From Anaerolineae bacterium (GTDB lineage Bacteria; Chloroflexota; Anaerolineae; 4572-78; J111), in the NCBI GenBank assembly GCA_016931895.1, contig JAFGDY010000043.1:1-52240 (forward strand): a stretch of 52,240 nt of DNA. The letters are read 5' to 3'. Below, one piece after another: positions 41,699 to 50,569 of this stretch; within the stretch, counting starts at the first letter, position 1, and every line of letters begins with the position of its first letter. The translations under genes and the position numbers were made by a program. The notes under the pieces were generated by a model. The model had not been told where the DNA came from, ran no database searches, and saw only the letters and a program-made list of their open reading frames with translations.

Positions 41699-43906
41699 TC
41701 AAGAATTCTTGCGGATAATGGGCAAAAATATGCCGCCGGCCGCGCTGCGGGCATATAAACCGGCTGCGGTGCCCACATAAAGTATATCCTTATCGGCCTG
41801 GTAAAAAACGGACAGGATCATCACTGAGGGCAGCCCGTCGCCCATTACCCGGCTCCAGGTAACCCCATCATCGCTGCTGGATACCAGACCATACTGGTGC
41901 AGGGCCGCGTAAATTACCCCCGCCTTGCTGTCGTAAGCCAGTTGGCCAAAAAGCGGGGGGAACGGCACCAACGAGGGCTTGAACGTGGTTAAGCCCAGGC
42001 TGGCGGTGATGTAGGCGGGTGTCCAGGCAGCGCCATCGTTAAGACTCTTCAAAAAAACGCCCTGGCAATCCATGGCATAAACCGTGCTTGGCGTAATGGG
42101 GTTGACCAGCACATCGTTGCCGCCACAGCCGCTACTGGTGATGAGATCGGTCCAGGTCAATCCGCCGTCACTGCTTTTAATGGTCACGGTAGGCCCAGTA
42201 TGGGTAGCATAGAGGACCAGTGGATTGGTGGGATGCACGGCTATGGCTGTCCCACCTATGGCCAATCCGGTTAGAGGGGTCCAGTTCTGGCCGCTATCGG
42301 TGCTTTTTGCTAACAGGCCAAAACTTGAAGCGCCATAAATGGTGGCCGGCGTGGTCGGATCAATGGCCAAGTCTGAAGGCAAATCTGGCCAGCCAGAGGT
42401 CGAGGCCACCCAGAGGTTGCTATCGGTGGTGCGCCACACATCAGGCACTCCAAGGGAAGATAGGCCGCCAAAGTAAGCGATGTTGGGATTGGTGGGATGG
42501 ATAGCTACAGCTCCGGCATAGTTGCTTTCCCCGCTGCTGGACCGGCTCCAACTTTGGCCGCTGTTGGCGCTTTGGATAAGGCCCTGGCCACTAATCAAAA
42601 GACCATCAGAAGCGCCTGTGGCCGCGTAAACCGTATTGTTCAGAGCAGCAATGCCATTGACCGGGTAAGCTCGCAGGTCAGTATTGGCCGCCACAAACTC
42701 AAAGGCAGTGGCCCCCACCTGGTAACTGGCCGGTGTTTTATATACCCCGGCTGAATTATCGTTGGCAATGCTGGCAAAATAGAGTACGCTATCACTGTTG
42801 GGGTCAACGGTCAAATGGTTGATACTCTTTTGGCTGGGTGCCTGGCCCAGCAAGCCCCAACTATTCCCCTGATCCGTGCTGCGATAGACAGCGCCAAGGA
42901 CCGGCGGAAGAGGAAAAAGAAGGGGCTGCGTTGTGGCCACGTAAAGCCACCCCTGGCTGTCAATCGCCATGGCGTTGGGGACATAAAAGAGCATTCCGGG
43001 TTGGTTAGGCAGTTCGGTCCAACTCTGGCCCCGGTTGGTAGTCGAGTACACCGTGCCCGCGGCACTGGCAACCGGGGAGAGATCCCCTCCTACCAAAGCA
43101 TAGGCCCGGTTAACGTTGGTGGGGTCGGCCACAATTTGCATAAATACTTCATTGTCGCTGCCGATATAGGCCTGGGTCCAATTGACCCCGTCGGTGCTGG
43201 TATAAACAGTTTCGTTATAGCCGCTGCCGTTATCGGCTTCGCCACCGGCATACATAAAGCCGCCCCCGCTTTCGGCCAGGGTGTGAATATTGGCCGTAAT
43301 TGGGGTTACATTGGCCAGGTTCCAGGCAGCGCCATTACTGCCGTAAAAGAGGGGCCGGGTGATAGGCGCGCCACCAATTGCGCCGGGGTCTGAACCGGCG
43401 ATGATCCTGCCAGCGCTGCTGAAGTGGGCCAGGGCAAAGATATTGCTATTGGGTAGCACCACGCTGTTCCAGCTATTGCCCCCATCCGCGCTCCGCCACA
43501 GGCGAGAATGTTGCGGTGTAGGCCCACCCACCTGGCCAATCAGGCTGGAGACATAAATATTTTGGCCGTTAGTCACCACAGCGACGGCCGTTAACCCCTG
43601 GTGTACACTTTCGTGGTCAACTTCGACGGGCAGGCCGGTTAGTTGCCAAGTTGCGCCGGCATCGGCACTTTTCCACAGGCCGGCGCCGGGTTCAAAATAT
43701 GCTCCGGAAAACAGGGCATCGCCGGCGCGGGCGTAGAGGGTGGTGGGGTTGGTTGGGACCGCCACAATTTCAAACACCCACCCGCCGTCAACCCCTATTG
43801 CCTGCCAGTTGCCGGCAGCGGCCACCAGGCTAATGGCGACAAATACCATCAGGCCGGCCAATCCCAGGCTAACGTTTATCATTAATAGTTTTTTCAACAT
43901 GGACAT
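41699..43906 (-). CDS. Secreted BNR/sortilin-like beta-propeller protein
   Basis: ATG 43906 follows AGGAGG. The 735-residue product has an N-terminal membrane-spanning signal (INVSLGLAGLMVFVAISLVA) and then many BNR-type Asp-box repeats of the form S.D.G.TW (SADAGATWQLTG, SADGGNSWNS, STDGVNWTQAY, STDQGNSWGLLG, SSDGGLTWTDL, SSDDGVTWSRV). Asp-box beta-propellers occur in sialidases, sortilin-like domains and photosystem II assembly factors; no sialidase Arg triad is apparent. The last residues, GGIFLPIIRKNS, resemble the C-termini of two other secreted proteins here. Likely an extracellular or surface protein. Confidence 0.9.
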   Translation of the reverse strand: MSMLKKLLMINVSLGLAGLMVFVAISLVAAAGNWQAIGVDGGWVFEIVAVPTNPTTLYARAGDALFSGAYFEPGAGLWKSADAGATWQLTGLPVEVDHESVHQGLTAVAVVTNGQNIYVSSLIGQVGGPTPQHSRLWRSADGGNSWNSVVLPNSNIFALAHFSSAGRIIAGSDPGAIGGAPITRPLFYGSNGAAWNLANVTPITANIHTLAESGGGFMYAGGEADNGSGYNETVYTSTDGVNWTQAYIGSDNEVFMQIVADPTNVNRAYALVGGDLSPVASAAGTVYSTTNRGQSWTELPNQPGMLFYVPNAMAIDSQGWLYVATTQPLLFPLPPVLGAVYRSTDQGNSWGLLGQAPSQKSINHLTVDPNSDSVLYFASIANDNSAGVYKTPASYQVGATAFEFVAANTDLRAYPVNGIAALNNTVYAATGASDGLLISGQGLIQSANSGQSWSRSSSGESNYAGAVAIHPTNPNIAYFGGLSSLGVPDVWRTTDSNLWVASTSGWPDLPSDLAIDPTTPATIYGASSFGLLAKSTDSGQNWTPLTGLAIGGTAIAVHPTNPLVLYATHTGPTVTIKSSDGGLTWTDLITSSGCGGNDVLVNPITPSTVYAMDCQGVFLKSLNDGAAWTPAYITASLGLTTFKPSLVPFPPLFGQLAYDSKAGVIYAALHQYGLVSSSDDGVTWSRVMGDGLPSVMILSVFYQADKDILYVGTAAGLYARSAAGGIFLPIIRKNS

Positions 43907-44015
43907 TATTTTCCTCCTGAAAACAACTTAAATCAATTCCCCAACCCTGTAAAACGTTGTTAGCAAATATCAACCCCTTTCTAATAGATAAATCTCTTAA
44001 AAGTCATACAACTAT

Positions 44016-44044
44016 TACTGAGATGCACGGCCGTGCGTCTCTAC
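44016..44044. repeat. Imperfect palindrome around GCACGGCCGTGC
   Basis: A 12-bp perfect core palindrome with imperfect arms (TGAGAT / GTCTCTAC). Its pattern of a GTAGAGAC-like arm next to a GC core resembles dispersed palindromes seen in many genomes. It sits upstream of the BNR-repeat gene. Confidence 0.5.
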
Positions 44045-44075
44045 AAGAATCCTAATGCCAATTTTGTGAAACGGG

Positions 44076-44106
44076 TTGTATGAGGTTTATCTGGTTTCCC
44101 TATAAT
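44076..44106 (+). promoter_or_regulatory. Orphan promoter in a non-coding interval
   Basis: TTGTAT, 19 bases, TATAAT. The -10 is perfect but spacing is long. No plus-strand gene follows for at least 6 kb. Confidence 0.4.
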
Positions 44107-44112
44107 AAGGGT

Positions 44113-44246
44113 TCTATAAACTCATCTAACCTGGGAGAATATAAGAACAGGCTACAAATAGGTTCAAAGTGAGGACACCTGACGGCAAGGTAAAGTGATG
44201 AGTTGAGGTTAATGACGATTAGCCATAAAAGGCCTGGCTATTTTTG
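44113..44246 (+). ncRNA. Candidate small RNA downstream of the orphan promoter
   Basis: The interval starts at the predicted transcription start and ends at a hairpin (TAGCCA 44220-44225 with TGGCTA 44235-44240) followed by TTTTT. No reading frame is plausible. The remaining bases to 44343 show nothing else. This is a weak prediction that rests on promoter and terminator signals only. Confidence 0.25.
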
Positions 44247-44343
44247 GAAGCAGGCAGTTTTGTAACCCGGCTTCCAGTTTAACCGATATAGCGGGAAAAA
44301 GCAATAGGAAGATTTTTAAACCTGACCGCTAACCCATAACATT

Positions 44344-45009
44344 TTACCGATACGCCGTTGGCCGCAAGGCCCAGGCCAGCTGGCGCTCAAAGCGCCCCCG
44401 CCGGTCCAGAGTATGGGCCAACCCCAGTAACCACTCGATAAGGTGTTCCCGGATATTATCCAACCGGCCGGGCAACGAAGCAATAATCATAGCTCGTAAT
44501 TCGGGCAGCAGGTCGGCATACTCCGCCGGAAATGTTATCTCGGCCAGGATGGCGGGGTGAACCGGAATAACGGCGGCGTTGAGCCAGGCTTCATCCAGGT
44601 AACGCTGGGCGCGAGGCGCGTGATAAAGGTGGGTGATGGCAAAAATTTGGGCCAGGCCGTAAGCGCGGCGCAAGGCCCGCGCCGCTCTCACTTCCAGCAT
44701 GGTGCAGTTGGCTCGCCGGCGCACAATCAGATAGTCGGCGGGAATCTGGAATTTTTCTAACAAGGTTGATTTCACCACTTTCGCGTCGGGCCGACGCGCC
44801 GGCCCGTGAACGTCTGAGGCTACAAAAAGGAGATAAGGTTTGGGCTGCGGGGCGCTATACCACAGGGCGGCGGCCATAGCCACCCGGCCCCGCAATTGTT
44901 TATTCTCTTTTTTTGTGCCCTGGCGTTTGCCCATAATGAGAATGGCCGAAGGGGTTTCAGGCCAGGTGAGTTCGTCTTCAGACGCAGAGAGTTTTTGATC
45001 CGGTCCCAT
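44344..45009 (-). CDS. DUF218 (YdcF/ElyC-like) family protein
   Basis: ATG 45009 lies 6 bases after AGGA and is preferred over the adjoining GTG. The 221-residue product keeps the DUF218 pattern: AILIMGKRQ, an internal LFVASDVHGP, NCTMLEVRAARAL and IFAITHLYHAPRAQRYLD. The family is linked to cell-envelope or vancomycin-sensitivity roles (SanA, ElyC) but usually has a membrane anchor; none is seen here. It has a good promoter 34 bases upstream. Confidence 0.78.
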   Translation of the reverse strand: MGPDQKLSASEDELTWPETPSAILIMGKRQGTKKENKQLRGRVAMAAALWYSAPQPKPYLLFVASDVHGPARRPDAKVVKSTLLEKFQIPADYLIVRRRANCTMLEVRAARALRRAYGLAQIFAITHLYHAPRAQRYLDEAWLNAAVIPVHPAILAEITFPAEYADLLPELRAMIIASLPGRLDNIREHLIEWLLGLAHTLDRRGRFERQLAWALRPTAYR

Positions 45010-45042
45010 CACGTATCCTGGGCTAACAAACTTCTGCGTTTG

Positions 45043-45071
45043 AATGTACCTGATTTGTTAGGGCTGGTCAA
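45043..45071 (-). promoter_or_regulatory. Promoter of the DUF218 gene
   Basis: On the minus strand TTGACC, 17 bases, TACATT. The leader is about 27 bases. Confidence 0.65.
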
Positions 45072-45098
45072 GTTGTTGAGTGATTGTGGCTCTGACTC

Positions 45099-45135
45099 AA
45101 AAAAGAGGTTGTCTCTTAAACGCGACAACCTCTTT
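45099..45135 (-). terminator. Rho-independent terminator of the beta-helix gene
   Basis: A perfect 12-bp stem (45102-45113 with 45124-45135) and, on the minus strand, a TTTTTT tail. Confidence 0.88.
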
Positions 45136-45155
45136 GGCTGACAATTTATAGGAGA

Positions 45156-48035
45156 TTATTTATTCTTGAGAATAATGGGCAAATAAATGCTCATTTTCTC
45201 TGAACTGAACACATACGTGTTGCCCCCCACAATGGCATCAACCAAGGCTACGCCCGGCCCCCCATCAATGGCTTCGTAGATCGTCACCGTGGTCGTATCA
45301 ACCGACGGCGCATTGACCCACAAGGTGACGGTTTGGGTCTCACTGCCGTACATCGGAATACCGGCAATGGTGCCCGAACTGGCGTTGGTGATGGTTATCA
45401 CACTGCCCCCGGTCCAGGCAATCCCACTGGATTTGGCATATCCATTCACGCTGGCCCAGCGCCCGGCCAACTCACTGTCCAGGTCCAGCCGCACCGCGTT
45501 GGCATCAGGCACATTGGACACATCCACAATGAGGTCAACGGGCTTGGGCGCGCTCTTGATATTGGTCACCTCAAACACAATGGCCCCCACTGCCTGCGCT
45601 CCGGCTCCACCGGGAATGATGTCCACATTGCGCTGGCTGAGGTTGTTGTCCCAGGGGATGTCACACTGGTGCACCACCGGGTCATCAGCAGAGTTGATTT
45701 CGCCGTGCAAACAGGTGTGACCGGTGCGGGTCGGTATCCAGCTAAATTTGAGGAGTTGCGTGCCGGTGGTGGGGGCAATACTGTTTGTCGTCGCCGTGCC
45801 AATGAGCGCCCAATCGTCGCATTTGATGCCCAGTGACGGTTCGTGCCAGTAGACCTTGATAGTATCACCCGTATGAGAGGCCGCGCTGCCCCGGTTACGC
45901 ACGATCATATAAACATAGTTGGTCGTCCCGCTAAGGGGGTTCTGATGTTCCAGGCCGCCGTCATCGGCATTGCGCACCCAGATGTCGGGGCTTTGCCAGA
46001 AGGAGGTGGTGGGAACGTCGCCATTGTCACTGTCATTATCCCGGGCCCACAGGTCAATCACGTCGCTGGACACGGCAACGGTCTGGGTCTGCACATCATT
46101 GCTGGTATCCTGGTCGCCGGTCAGGGTGACGGTAGTGGTGAAGTGGTAGCTGCCCACATTAGCGGGCGTGAGGGAGGGAAAGCTCAATGTAGCATAGCCC
46201 AACGGCGGTAGGTCTGTAGATTGGTTGTGAGGGCCGTAGTCTGCGCTCAGGGCTGTCCCACCGGCCTGCACCGACACGTTGATGCCAGTCTCAGCCGTAG
46301 TGCCCGCATTGCCGATTTTGACCGTCGGGATGACCGATTGCCCTTGTTTGCCCGCCTTTTTAGGTTGGAGAATGGCAATCACCTGCACATCCACCAACGG
46401 CTCGTAGGCCGAGGAGAACTCCGAGGTGTTGCCGGTGTTATCGGTGGCGGTGGCCGTCACGTTGGTGCCGGTGAAGGCGCTGGCCTGGGTGAAGGTGAAG
46501 TTACCGGAGGCGTTGGCAGAAGTGGAGCCGTGATAGTACTGTCCTTCGTCCTCGGCGTCAGAGAAGATTTCCACTGTGCTGTTGGGTGGGGCCTGGCCCG
46601 AAACGGTGTTGGTGCTGACGTTGGTCAGAATGGGCGGGAAGAGTTCCTGGTTGCCGCCGTCTCTCAAAAGAATGCCATTGTCGTCATTATGGTAAATGCG
46701 GTTCTGCCGCAGCGTATTATTAATGCTACCGTTCTCCATAACAAAAATACCGGGGCCGGGTCGTTGATCAACTCTGTATTTTGTATAAGCAATCAAATTG
46801 TTCTCCGCCAGGTTGTCGTGAGCGCCGTAGCGGAATAAGATGCCGTAGCTGGTGTTTCCCAAATCAATGGTACCACTTGCGTCGGTGCCAATGTAATTCC
46901 CTTTAACAATATTGTTGTGAGCGCCCACAGAAATAATGATACCACCATAAGCGTTACCACTGACCAAATTACGCTCGGCTGGGGTATTACCGCCAATCAG
47001 ATTATGCCCAGCCCAATCAATAATAATCCCCAGGTTTGTATTGCTGACGATTGATGTTCCTGTTATATTGGTGCCAATGTAATTGCCGCTAACCGTATTG
47101 CTCATCGTGTCAAGGTCTCTGATGATCACGCCATCAACATTGCCGCTGATGAGATTGCGCTCTCCAGGGGTATTACCGCCAATGATGTTGTACCGTGCCC
47201 CTTCAGAAATAAGCACCCCCGACATAGCATTACCTATTGCAGCCAAACCATTAATATTAGTGCCAATGTAATTAGCTTTGATGGTATTGCTCATTGTGCT
47301 ACTACCATCAACCCGCACACCGTATTCCTTGTTGCCTGAAATCAGGTTGCGTTCACTGGATGTGGTTCCACCAATGGTATTGTTGGTCGCGCCATCATCA
47401 ATGGAAACACCACTCCCGCCGTTGTCACCGTTGTTCAGAATGTGGTTGCCACTGACGGTGTTACCTGTTGTGGCGCTGCCATCCAGATCCACCCCATCAT
47501 CTTGATTACCGATGATGAGATTACAATCACCGGCGCAGCCCGTATCAGGTGAACTGTTTATGCCGCCAATCGTGCTGGTACTTGCATTGGTCAGGTGGAT
47601 GCCATTGCCGGGGAAATCTTGGATTTGTAATCCCCTGATGACGGCATTATTGGTTCCGGTAATGACCAGTCCATCGCCAACCCCTAAACTACTCCCATCT
47701 ATAATGACGCCCGCATTACTGCCGTCAATCGTAACAGTATCGGTGGTAATAAAAGGCAAGAAACCGGAAGTTAGCGTAATAGTAGCCGGAGTGCCTAGTG
47801 GAAAAACAGAGTTACTAAACGTAATCGTCGCTCCTGCCTGCAAGCCCAACATACACTGCCGCAACGAACCCGGCCCGCTGTCTAAGGTGCTGGTCACTGT
47901 ACAATCGCCGGGCGCGTAGAGCGGCCGAACCGGCGGCGCAGCCTGGGCCGGGCCAGCAGCCAGGATACCAAAAACTACTACCAGAGCCATCAGCGGTAGA
48001 CTGACGGCGACAATCATAGGATAAAACTTCTTCAT
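45156..48035 (-). CDS. Large secreted beta-helix protein with CARDB-like domain
   Basis: ATG 48035 follows GGAGG by 5 bases. The 959-residue product has a signal peptide (SLPLMALVVVFGILAAGPAQA), then a right-handed beta-helix of about 400 residues with recurring N-x-I-x-G-N/NYIGT patterns (GNYIGTNITGTS, GNYIGTDASGTI, ERNLISGN repeated), typical of NosD/pectate-lyase-like folds. An Ig-like segment (SGQAPPNSTVEIFSD) and a CARDB-like domain (VDVQVIAILQPKKAGKQGQ) follow, then a further beta-rich region and the C-terminus SIYLPIILKNK. No lyase catalytic set is apparent. Probably a surface or extracellular adhesin-like protein. Confidence 0.9.
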   Translation of the reverse strand: MKKFYPMIVAVSLPLMALVVVFGILAAGPAQAAPPVRPLYAPGDCTVTSTLDSGPGSLRQCMLGLQAGATITFSNSVFPLGTPATITLTSGFLPFITTDTVTIDGSNAGVIIDGSSLGVGDGLVITGTNNAVIRGLQIQDFPGNGIHLTNASTSTIGGINSSPDTGCAGDCNLIIGNQDDGVDLDGSATTGNTVSGNHILNNGDNGGSGVSIDDGATNNTIGGTTSSERNLISGNKEYGVRVDGSSTMSNTIKANYIGTNINGLAAIGNAMSGVLISEGARYNIIGGNTPGERNLISGNVDGVIIRDLDTMSNTVSGNYIGTNITGTSIVSNTNLGIIIDWAGHNLIGGNTPAERNLVSGNAYGGIIISVGAHNNIVKGNYIGTDASGTIDLGNTSYGILFRYGAHDNLAENNLIAYTKYRVDQRPGPGIFVMENGSINNTLRQNRIYHNDDNGILLRDGGNQELFPPILTNVSTNTVSGQAPPNSTVEIFSDAEDEGQYYHGSTSANASGNFTFTQASAFTGTNVTATATDNTGNTSEFSSAYEPLVDVQVIAILQPKKAGKQGQSVIPTVKIGNAGTTAETGINVSVQAGGTALSADYGPHNQSTDLPPLGYATLSFPSLTPANVGSYHFTTTVTLTGDQDTSNDVQTQTVAVSSDVIDLWARDNDSDNGDVPTTSFWQSPDIWVRNADDGGLEHQNPLSGTTNYVYMIVRNRGSAASHTGDTIKVYWHEPSLGIKCDDWALIGTATTNSIAPTTGTQLLKFSWIPTRTGHTCLHGEINSADDPVVHQCDIPWDNNLSQRNVDIIPGGAGAQAVGAIVFEVTNIKSAPKPVDLIVDVSNVPDANAVRLDLDSELAGRWASVNGYAKSSGIAWTGGSVITITNASSGTIAGIPMYGSETQTVTLWVNAPSVDTTTVTIYEAIDGGPGVALVDAIVGGNTYVFSSEKMSIYLPIILKNK
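47939..48035 (-). repeat. Copy 1 of a 97-bp near-identical signal-peptide DNA
   Basis: This segment (start codon through the AAGPAQA cleavage region) differs from 50473-50569 at about 12 of 97 positions by eye, while the proteins differ completely after it. Confidence 0.8.
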
Positions 48036-48127
48036 TTTGTCCTCCGTTGAGATTTTGATTAATAAGGGGTCATGGGTCCCTTTACCCTACCATTCATTGA
48101 TTGATATGGCCAAATTCCGAAAACGCA

Positions 48128-50569
48128 TCAGTTCTTGAATATAGTCGGCAGGTATACTTTTCCCCTGGTTTCCGAGGTATAACGATATATCCCGGCTTCA
48201 ACCAATGTCTCTTCGGCCATACCATCCAATTGCATCCCGCCGGTAGTGACACTGCCGCCGGCGGTACCGGCATATAGAATCACCCGCTCTGCTGCTATTC
48301 CGGCTGCCAGCGAATTCACATTGGCATAGCCTAAAGCCCCGGCGGCCCGCTGCCAAGAGTTACCCAAATTGAACGAGCGAAACAGGCCGGTTGTTGTGGC
48401 TTGATAGAGAGCCAGGGTGGGGGGAATACCGGCAAAATAGAGTTGCTCTACCTGTAACCCTAAATGTTGGCCAACCATCTGCCAGGATACCCCCCCATCA
48501 CTTGACCTATATACCCCGCTGCCATTGCCAGCAAACACCCGGTAGGGCGATGTCGGCTCTACCAGGATGTCAGTAGCCAGACGTAACTCCGCAGTCTGAG
48601 CGCCAATGTCCAGCCAACTATCGCCATTATTAGTACTCTTAAAAAGGCCGCTCCCCGATGTAGCGGCGTAAACTACGTTTGAGTTTATGGGATCAAAGGC
48701 CAAATCAGTGACCTGGCTGATTTCCTGGCTAAAACTCATGCGGGTCCATTGCGCCCCATAATTGGCACTTTTGTAAATGCTACCTTGAGCGGAGAAAGCA
48801 CTCCCACACGCATGTTGAATCCCAGCCAGCAGAACGCCAGAATTTAACGGGTCGGCTTTTAATACTTGTGGCCATAGCCAGCAACCGGCATATTGCGGCG
48901 GCGACATAAGCGTACCGGATATGGGCCAGGTTACCCCGCCGTCGCTGCTGATATAAACCTTTTCATTGGTGCCATAGTAAGCCCGGCCCGGTATAAATGG
49001 GTCCAGCAACAAACTGCTGCTTCCTTGTATCCCATTTTCCAAAAATTGCCAGGCTCCCCCCCCGGAGTCGGTTTTAAAAACGCCCGGCCAGCCGTCCACC
49101 AGGGCATAAACCTTTTCTGGATGGCCGGGGGCCACAGCCAACTGTTTGGGTCTGATTGCTGCCAAACCTTGATTAACGATGGTCCAATCTGTACCATTGT
49201 TGGTTGTTTTCCAAACTCCATATTGGCTGTCGGATGCGAAAATGGTATTGGGGATGGTTGGGGGTAAGGCAAAGTCTGTTACCAAATTATTAGGGCCAAA
49301 AGAGGTCCAATTTGCGCCGCCATCAACCGTTTGATGATTACCCGAATGGCCGGCAATAAATACGCGGTTAGCCGTAGCCGGGTCAAAAACAATCATCGAA
49401 GCGCAGCTTGGCTGGCCGGTAAAGATTTCAACGGGCGACCATGTGGTCAAGTCTGAACCGGTACTCTTTTTAATTATGGCCCCGGCTGGACAGCCGGTGA
49501 AATAATCGCTCCCTATCCATACTTCATGAGGACTAAAGGGATTGACGGCCAAACCGATAATAGTTACATCAGCAGTGACCGTAACCGGCCGAGAGGCAAA
49601 GGTCCATGAGTCGCCGCCGTTGGCTGTGCGAAAGAGATAACCATTCTCGGTGGCCAGGTACATAGTCAGGGGGTTGGTTGGATGAAACGCCAGGGCGGCC
49701 ACTTCTGTATCGGTCAGGCCAGTCATTGCGCTTGCCCACGTTTGACCATAATCAACAGATTTAACCAGCCCCGTCCCCGGATTGGGCGTACCCGGCACAG
49801 ATTGAGCCGTGCCGTATATAACTCCCGGACTTGTAGGGTGGGGGTATATCTGAAAATGGCTGGGGGTGCCGCCACCGGCCCACAATGAAGGGGAAATAGG
49901 AATAGGCGTCCAGGTGTCACCCTCATTATCTGAGCGATAGGGGCCTGCCTGTCCATGATTAGCATATACTCTGTTAGGCGACAGGGGGTCTACCGCCAAC
50001 GCGCTGGTGTTTCTATCAGCAAATACAAACACCCAACTGTCACCTGCATCTCGGCTACGGAATATACCTACGTCAAAGGCGCGCGCATAGAGCGTAGTAG
50101 GAAGGAGAGGGTTGAGAGCAAGCTGATTGATGGTGCCGCCATACGGCCCACCCGTAGTCCATATCCCAATGGCTTGGGTCACGGTAAAAGCGTTAGACAG
50201 GCCGGCGGAAGCGCCATCCGGGTTGGTCACAGTTAAGGGGTAAACGCCAGGCTGCAAGCCCCACGGTACGGTTGCAGTTAAGGTGGCGCTACTGACCCAC
50301 CCTACATCTACCAACGTTGTGCTGCCCACCTGCACCGTGGGGGGAGTGATGACAACAGTACCGGACAACTCGGCAGTAAAATTACTGCCGGTGATAACAA
50401 TCGCTGTCTCAAGGTCATTGGGCGCAGATGAGGGGTCAACCTGGGTTACGACAGGGGGAGACTTCAGGGGCGCAGCCTGGGCCGGGCCAGCGACCAGGAT
50501 ACCAAAAACTACTACCAGGGCCACCAACGGCAGGCTGGTGGCGACAATCATTGAAAAAAACTTCTTCAT
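48128..50569 (-). CDS. Secreted IPT/TIG and BNR-repeat protein
   Basis: The 813-residue product has a signal peptide almost identical to that of the neighbouring beta-helix protein. An IPT/TIG Ig-like domain follows (about 37-130; PPVVTQVDPSSAPNDLE, VVITGSNFTAEL), then a long array of Asp-box repeats (SRDAGDSWVFV, SVDYGQTWASAM, TANGGDSWTFA, TVDGGANWTSFG, SSDGGVTWPIS, STNNGDSWLDIG, SSDGGVSWQMVG) that should form one or two beta-propellers. The C-terminus GKVYLPTIFKN matches the LP-type ending of the other two secreted proteins. It resembles the 41.7-43.9 kb protein in repeats and could share a role at the cell surface. Confidence 0.9.
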   Translation of the reverse strand: MKKFFSMIVATSLPLVALVVVFGILVAGPAQAAPLKSPPVVTQVDPSSAPNDLETAIVITGSNFTAELSGTVVITPPTVQVGSTTLVDVGWVSSATLTATVPWGLQPGVYPLTVTNPDGASAGLSNAFTVTQAIGIWTTGGPYGGTINQLALNPLLPTTLYARAFDVGIFRSRDAGDSWVFVFADRNTSALAVDPLSPNRVYANHGQAGPYRSDNEGDTWTPIPISPSLWAGGGTPSHFQIYPHPTSPGVIYGTAQSVPGTPNPGTGLVKSVDYGQTWASAMTGLTDTEVAALAFHPTNPLTMYLATENGYLFRTANGGDSWTFASRPVTVTADVTIIGLAVNPFSPHEVWIGSDYFTGCPAGAIIKKSTGSDLTTWSPVEIFTGQPSCASMIVFDPATANRVFIAGHSGNHQTVDGGANWTSFGPNNLVTDFALPPTIPNTIFASDSQYGVWKTTNNGTDWTIVNQGLAAIRPKQLAVAPGHPEKVYALVDGWPGVFKTDSGGGAWQFLENGIQGSSSLLLDPFIPGRAYYGTNEKVYISSDGGVTWPISGTLMSPPQYAGCWLWPQVLKADPLNSGVLLAGIQHACGSAFSAQGSIYKSANYGAQWTRMSFSQEISQVTDLAFDPINSNVVYAATSGSGLFKSTNNGDSWLDIGAQTAELRLATDILVEPTSPYRVFAGNGSGVYRSSDGGVSWQMVGQHLGLQVEQLYFAGIPPTLALYQATTTGLFRSFNLGNSWQRAAGALGYANVNSLAAGIAAERVILYAGTAGGSVTTGGMQLDGMAEETLVEAGIYRYTSETRGKVYLPTIFKN
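50473..50569 (-). repeat. Copy 2 of the 97-bp signal-peptide DNA
   Basis: Counterpart of 47939-48035; same length, same reading frame, same distance to the start codon. Confidence 0.8.

Follow-up and report, generated by a model that had tools for sequence, protein, structure and literature searches.

Three neighbouring genes encode secreted proteins with a similar C-terminal tail

The window is the whole stretch of DNA that was analysed, 52,240 nucleotides of an Anaerolineae bacterium of the Chloroflexota (contig JAFGDY010000043.1), and the genome that it comes from is referred to here as G000. On its reverse strand lie three open reading frames for large secreted proteins. The first (41699..43906) encodes a sortilin/Vps10-like beta-propeller of 735 residues (PF15902, E 1.4e-18) that ends in IFLPIIRKNS, with the coding sequence of this tail (41702..41731) abutting the stop codon. 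The second (45156..48035) encodes a protein of 959 residues with a right-handed beta-helix (PF13229, E 4.4e-11) and an Ig-like domain (PF17936, E 3.6e-07) ending in IYLPIILKNK (45159..45188), and the third (48128..50569) a protein of 813 residues with a TIG domain (PF01833, E 1.1e-06) and a further sortilin/Vps10-like propeller (PF15902, E 2.3e-32) that ends in VYLPTIFKN (48131..48157), a tail that was also recovered by whole-genome pattern matching.

A sequence-only reading of this DNA had described the three proteins as secreted, unrelated and sharing a tail of the form aromatic-L-P-x-I-x-K-N. All three open reading frames do end as described, the pattern fits each of them and a Sec-type N-terminal signal sequence was called in each by our heuristic. 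The description of the proteins as unrelated holds for the beta-helix protein and fails for the two propellers, which are paralogues with 31% identity over their alignment. The adjacent beta-helix protein and second propeller have different bodies and a near-identical signal peptide, which suggests that the 5' end was recombined or duplicated. As two of the three proteins are paralogous and two of the three share a signal peptide, the window represents about two independent instances rather than three, and taken alone it is weak evidence for a shared tag and would not prove one. A predicted structure of the first protein with its paralogue was uninformative (mean pLDDT 40) and a search of genome contigs with one of the window proteins returned one weak Bacteroidales locus.

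The tail exceeds chance and is concentrated on secreted proteins

In order to assess the tail beyond the window we counted the core pattern [YF]LP[LIVM][ILVM]x[KR] within the last 12 residues of open reading frames. It was present in 10 of 737 frames of a G000 sample that is partly biased, as it comprises the window together with 10 stretches whose contigs were picked for pattern matches; the mean for shuffled tails was 0.02 and the core occurred internally only 3 times in 252,929 residues of the sample. Two further genomes of the phylum, G166 and G168, gave 13 of 346 and 25 of 225 frames respectively, with shuffled tails giving 0.02 to 0.035, although these stretches were picked around motif matches or on contigs bearing them so that the fractions are not genome rates. 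Unbiased scans of the whole G000 genome with degenerate codon patterns for tail plus stop gave 8, 6 and 9 matches against 1, 0 and 2 for the reversed patterns, while a narrower first codon pattern matched nowhere in that genome. Across 201 genomes of the phylum the form ending in K/R-N-stop had 29 matches in 14 genomes compared with 3 for the reversed pattern. The form ending in K/R-stop had 127 matches compared with 58 reversed in 70 genomes, the excess being concentrated in particular genomes such as G012, G061, G166, G198, G088, G192 and G011 (58 against 0). Among 562 G000 frames from stretches picked independently of the motif the strict tail was found on 1 of 75 secreted frames and on none of the cytoplasmic, membrane, lipoprotein-like or other frames; a looser pattern found 6 tails of which only 2 were on secreted frames, and is therefore noisy.

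Compartments were called in the samples of G000, G166 and G168 with our own signal-peptide heuristic rather than SignalP. An equal frequency of the motif in cytoplasmic proteins had been named in the sequence-only reading as the outcome that would speak against a signal, and the counts run the other way: the strict tail was carried by 49 of 219 secreted frames and by 2 of 753 cytoplasmic ones (Fisher p about 2e-31), and while the use of motif-chosen stretches raises the rates, the contrast far exceeds what that choice could add. It was also found on 1 of 40 lipoprotein-like frames (p 0.002 against the secreted class), a single case which may be a Sec substrate, and was missing from all 119 multi-membrane and all 177 other frames. 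On a loose test an AxA-like site follows the hydrophobic core of the signal sequence in all 49 tagged secreted frames.

The tag is found behind a wide range of domains. We scanned a subset of 47 tagged proteins, from which very long and very short ones were omitted and to which five from other genomes were added, and these matched 93 Pfam families including beta-helix, Kelch, FG-GAP, laminin G, Ig-like and subtilase domains. The kinship between the two window propellers might have pointed to the last strand of a common domain, or to coincidence among paralogues, as the source of the similarity. This explanation is already contradicted by the counts, with 10 to 25 tails seen where shuffling gives 0.02 to 0.035, and given the number of families and the fact that some tagged proteins are merely 88-132 residues long with the signal peptide included, we regard it as scarcely credible.

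The box closes the protein and has a genome-specific register

The motif sits at a set distance from the C-terminus. The proline is followed by four residues in most tails of G166 (11 of 12) and G168 (24 of 26) and by five in most of those of G000 (8 of 11), and these differences between genomes are significant (p 0.003 and 3e-05), with the reservation that the strict pattern permits few lengths and that longer tails, for instance in G011, fall outside the count. The distance from tag to C-terminus is thus constant in a given genome and varies from one genome to another. In the tails examined the motif was followed by neither a membrane helix nor a cytoplasmic basic cluster, and in the window only 5 or 6 residues remain after the proline with no helix.

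In G168 and G000 the leucine and proline positions of the tag are encoded by freely varying synonymous codons, which indicates selection at the level of the protein. A ribosome-stalling or other nucleotide-level signal is disfavoured by this synonymous variation, though in G166 the proline codon is CCG in 12 of 12 cases.

A tail that is hydrophobic with a terminal K/R might also be a passive peptide adhering to the membrane or to a hydrophobic sheath with no specific reader, and our failure to find a reader gene near tagged genes (see below) would fit with this. Stickiness however needs neither a near-invariant proline nor a register, and besides the fixed C-terminal position we found by eye a Leu/Ala-Pro box in 14 of 17 short tails that had been picked blind to their ends on the basis of a preceding choice-of-anchor Q domain. 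We therefore consider passive adhesion to be quite improbable.

The tail corresponds to the YLP-box of NCBIfam

Two NCBIfam entries, NF050076.1 (sort_motif_YLP, 11 positions, cut-off 15 bits) and NF053834.1 (ultrashort_CTERM), are both named as YLP-box putative sorting motif-containing protein. Like the tails described here they have a C-terminal Y/F-L-P-hydrophobic-x-K/R box, and by anatomy the window tails belong to this group, each of the secreted proteins having an aromatic-Leu-Pro-hydrophobic box no more than about 10 residues from its C-terminus. The tail is the already named YLP-box motif, of a kind that is known but unexplained: the entries name no reader or mechanism and we found no papers on the motif in the literature searched. 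What the present analysis adds to the entries is the lack of a helix, a tag-rich genome in which sortase was not detected, the exchange with other anchors in one slot and the genome-specific register.

In contrast with their anatomy, none of the three window tails was matched by either model at E<=10, so the curated models miss the form ending in KN. Other G000 tails come near to the NF050076 cut-off (11.2 and 12.9 bits against 15), and 3 matches to the YLP models were obtained in this genome at E<=0.3. At the same threshold NF050076 matched 10 and NF053834 2 of the 47 scanned tagged proteins. Of the 201 genomes of the phylum, 53 passed the NF050076 cut-off at E<=0.3, compared with 1 of 14 control genomes. 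At the loose threshold of E<=10, where 12 of the 14 controls also had matches, the numbers per genome were 119 in G011, 41 in G166, 38 in G192, 34 in G061 and 21 in G000, down to 2 in each of G142 and G010 and 1 in G005. The lone matches of several genomes were internal and spurious and single counts are often noise. Genomes with a single tag were also considered as a route to a dedicated enzyme and were abandoned after 20 neighbourhoods, among them three f17 cases without a C-terminal tag.

The tag takes the place of established surface anchors

The choice-of-anchor Q domain, whose family name implies that varied anchors follow it, was found in 10 of the 47 scanned proteins. We searched for it in 44 genomes, looking at 30 loci and then at 63 matches by domain position together with 8 in stretches fetched by tag; the matches examined are a selection from a longer list and the 8 tag-fetched ones, all of them tagged, are excluded from the counts that follow. 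Among 40 matches in tag-bearing genomes there were 24 with the tag, 13 with none by regular expression, 1 with a helix, 1 with LPXTG and 1 open frame, and inspection by eye added 6 more tagged frames (30 of 39), three of them with longer ends. The 23 matches in tag-free genomes comprised 6 with SLH repeats, 1 with a helix plus basic residues, 11 with no recognised anchor and 5 open frames, and none had the tag. Tagged closed frames therefore number 24 of 39 in tag-bearing and 0 of 18 in tag-free genomes (p 5e-06, or 2e-08 with the cases called by eye), p-values that serve as a guide only since the matches are not all separate proteins and the genomes are related.

SLH repeats were confirmed in the choice-of-anchor Q frames of G112 (loci L171-L176). 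In the tag-free genome G126 the domain precedes LPNTG and a helix, and elsewhere it is followed by LPETG, a helix and RRRR in one G000 copy (L191), by a cysteine, a helix and RR in G120 and by a cysteine, a helix and RRR in one protein of G011. Judged by domain order, the tag occupies the slot that is held in relatives by SLH repeats, a Cys-helix-Arg tail or LPXTG, and this exchange behind one domain family favours anchoring as the role of the tag. On the other side, 11 of the 18 closed choice-of-anchor Q frames of tag-free genomes have no recognised anchor and the domain is thus not always anchored. SLH was rejected as a general substitute for the tag, as G112 was the sole genome of 46 with SLH at E<=1e-5 (38 matches).

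At two loci, L144 and L182 from G120 and G055, the choice-of-anchor Q ends consist of a Pro/Thr-rich linker, a cysteine, a short helix and Arg-Arg, an arrangement that looks like a separate tripartite sorting tag.

A cluster of five adjacent secreted frames in G168 (L130:6417-11887), possibly a surface scaffold cluster, encodes one cohesin domain in each, and the frames end in a YLP tag, in a helix with KK or in neither, an exchange of tag and helix like that seen with choice-of-anchor Q.

The tail could instead be an export signal for a second transport step across a sheath, S-layer or outer layer after which the protein is released, comparable to the C-terminal signals of some dedicated secretion systems. 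The fixed C-terminal register fits secretion as well as it does retention and so do hydrolase-like cargoes such as a subtilase and an ExeM-type nuclease. Release is however harder to reconcile with a slot that is common to SLH, LPXTG and helix anchors and with cohesin-domain proteins in G168 that bear either the tag or a C-terminal helix, and we consider it unlikely.

Known processing enzymes do not follow the distribution of the tag

The sequence-only reading had called for a search for a co-occurring processing enzyme, and none was found. Profile searches of 40 genomes matched sortase (PF04203) in 34 of them, 33 over the cut-off, irrespective of the tag, with 5 matches in G000. There was no sortase match in G168 and G200 in this search, so sortase is not found in every tag-bearing genome: G168 is 97% complete and carries 26 strict tails on secreted frames. 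Exosortase (PF09721) was matched in 3 of the 40 genomes, over the cut-off in G011 and G145 and below it in G192, with no match in G000. Rhombosortase (TIGR03902) and the myxosortase MrtX (NF040593) were both over their cut-offs in 0 of 24 genomes; sub-cut-off matches to TIGR03902 were present in all 24 and in 14 of 14 controls and were taken as general rhomboids. The window tags also lack the cysteine that characterises MYXO-CTERM. All four enzymes were rejected as readers on their genome distribution, and on these profile searches none of them is the general reader unless a diverged relative acts.

In three tag-free genomes, G005, G028 and G160, the sortase domains are embedded in open frames of great length, 1080 to 3165 residues.

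These data also bear on whether the tail is a degenerate tripartite substrate of sortase, exosortase, rhombosortase or myxosortase. The Leu-Pro that the tail has in common with LPXTG and the sortases over the cut-off in most of the genomes, including G000, lend this idea some appeal. A substrate of that type would be expected to keep the helix and the cytoplasmic basic cluster that are missing after the motif, and the many tagged secreted proteins of G168, where sortase was not detected, the restricted distribution of the other three enzymes and the coexistence of a normal LPETG protein in G000 all stand against it. We regard it as very improbable.

All-against-all comparison of the frames neighbouring tagged genes, in G000 with G166 and then in these two with G168, gave no convincing dedicated reader. 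What recurred beside tagged genes were members of large and common families, among them response regulators, kinases, ABC ATPases and glycosyltransferases.

A candidate surface-retention tag that lacks a membrane helix

The proposal in the sequence-only reading that the shared tail is a sorting or anchoring signal is supported, at the level of sequence, by the contrast between secreted and cytoplasmic proteins, by the independent naming of the motif at NCBI and by the anchor swap. We propose that the YLP-box probably acts as a very short C-terminal surface-retention tag that is captured after Sec export by a putative reader, a reading to which we assign a probability of roughly 0.6. A tagged protein would leave the cytoplasm through Sec and lose its N-terminal signal peptide by cleavage, as is suggested by the signal sequences. 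With no membrane helix behind the motif, the chain should clear the membrane entirely, and the free C-terminus, consisting of [aromatic]-L-P-hydrophobic-hydrophobic-x-[K/R] and 0-3 further residues, would then be caught outside. The captor would be a putative component of the envelope dedicated to this task, a receptor that binds the tail or else a transpeptidase, and would hold the protein on the surface. As far as sequence can show, the carriers are secreted, the register is fixed, the tag follows many unrelated domains and it occupies the slot of established anchors; from these features we infer that tagged proteins would be captured and retained at the surface.

Like LPXTG the YLP-box is a Leu-Pro C-terminal tag of secreted surface proteins that can occupy the same slot after the choice-of-anchor Q domain, but it has no membrane helix, no basic cytoplasmic tail and no TG, and sortase was not found in G168, which is rich in it. 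The PEP-CTERM/exosortase, GlyGly-CTERM/rhombosortase and MYXO-CTERM/myxosortase systems are described as having one C-terminal tag across otherwise unrelated secreted proteins of a genome (PMC11980579, PMC1569441), and on that description the YLP-box resembles them. It differs in that the known C-terminal sorting tags are outlined as tripartite, with a motif, a membrane helix and a basic cluster (PMC11980579), whereas the YLP-box is a motif alone. The choice-of-anchor Q domain also carries SLH repeats in G112, but the Pfam model of SLH describes a folded repeat with 44 positions and the YLP-box has about 9 residues.

In the known C-terminal surface-sorting systems named in the two papers, a helix keeps the substrate in the membrane until an enzyme acts. 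A nine-residue tag without a helix, carried by tens of proteins per genome across several lineages of the phylum, would have to work by another logic. More tentatively, and with rather less confidence than we place in surface retention itself, we suggest that the YLP-box could be the signal of a further class of C-terminal surface sorting that lacks a membrane-spanning stop-transfer segment. The putative reader of such a class would grip the free C-terminus of the fully translocated protein in a lineage-specific register, with K/R last or K-N last, and would be unrelated to sortase, exosortase, rhombosortase and myxosortase. The tag-rich G168 with no sortase match, the anchor swap and the fixed register turn an unexplained catalogue entry into claims that can be tested.

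Among the smallest tagged proteins we also observed a gene pair conserved between G000 and G168, in which the gene for a tagged secreted protein of about 100 residues adjoins that for a larger secreted protein, which belongs to the same family in both genomes and has 451 residues in G000 (L053:3451-5113) and 380 residues in G168 (L135:5337-6759).
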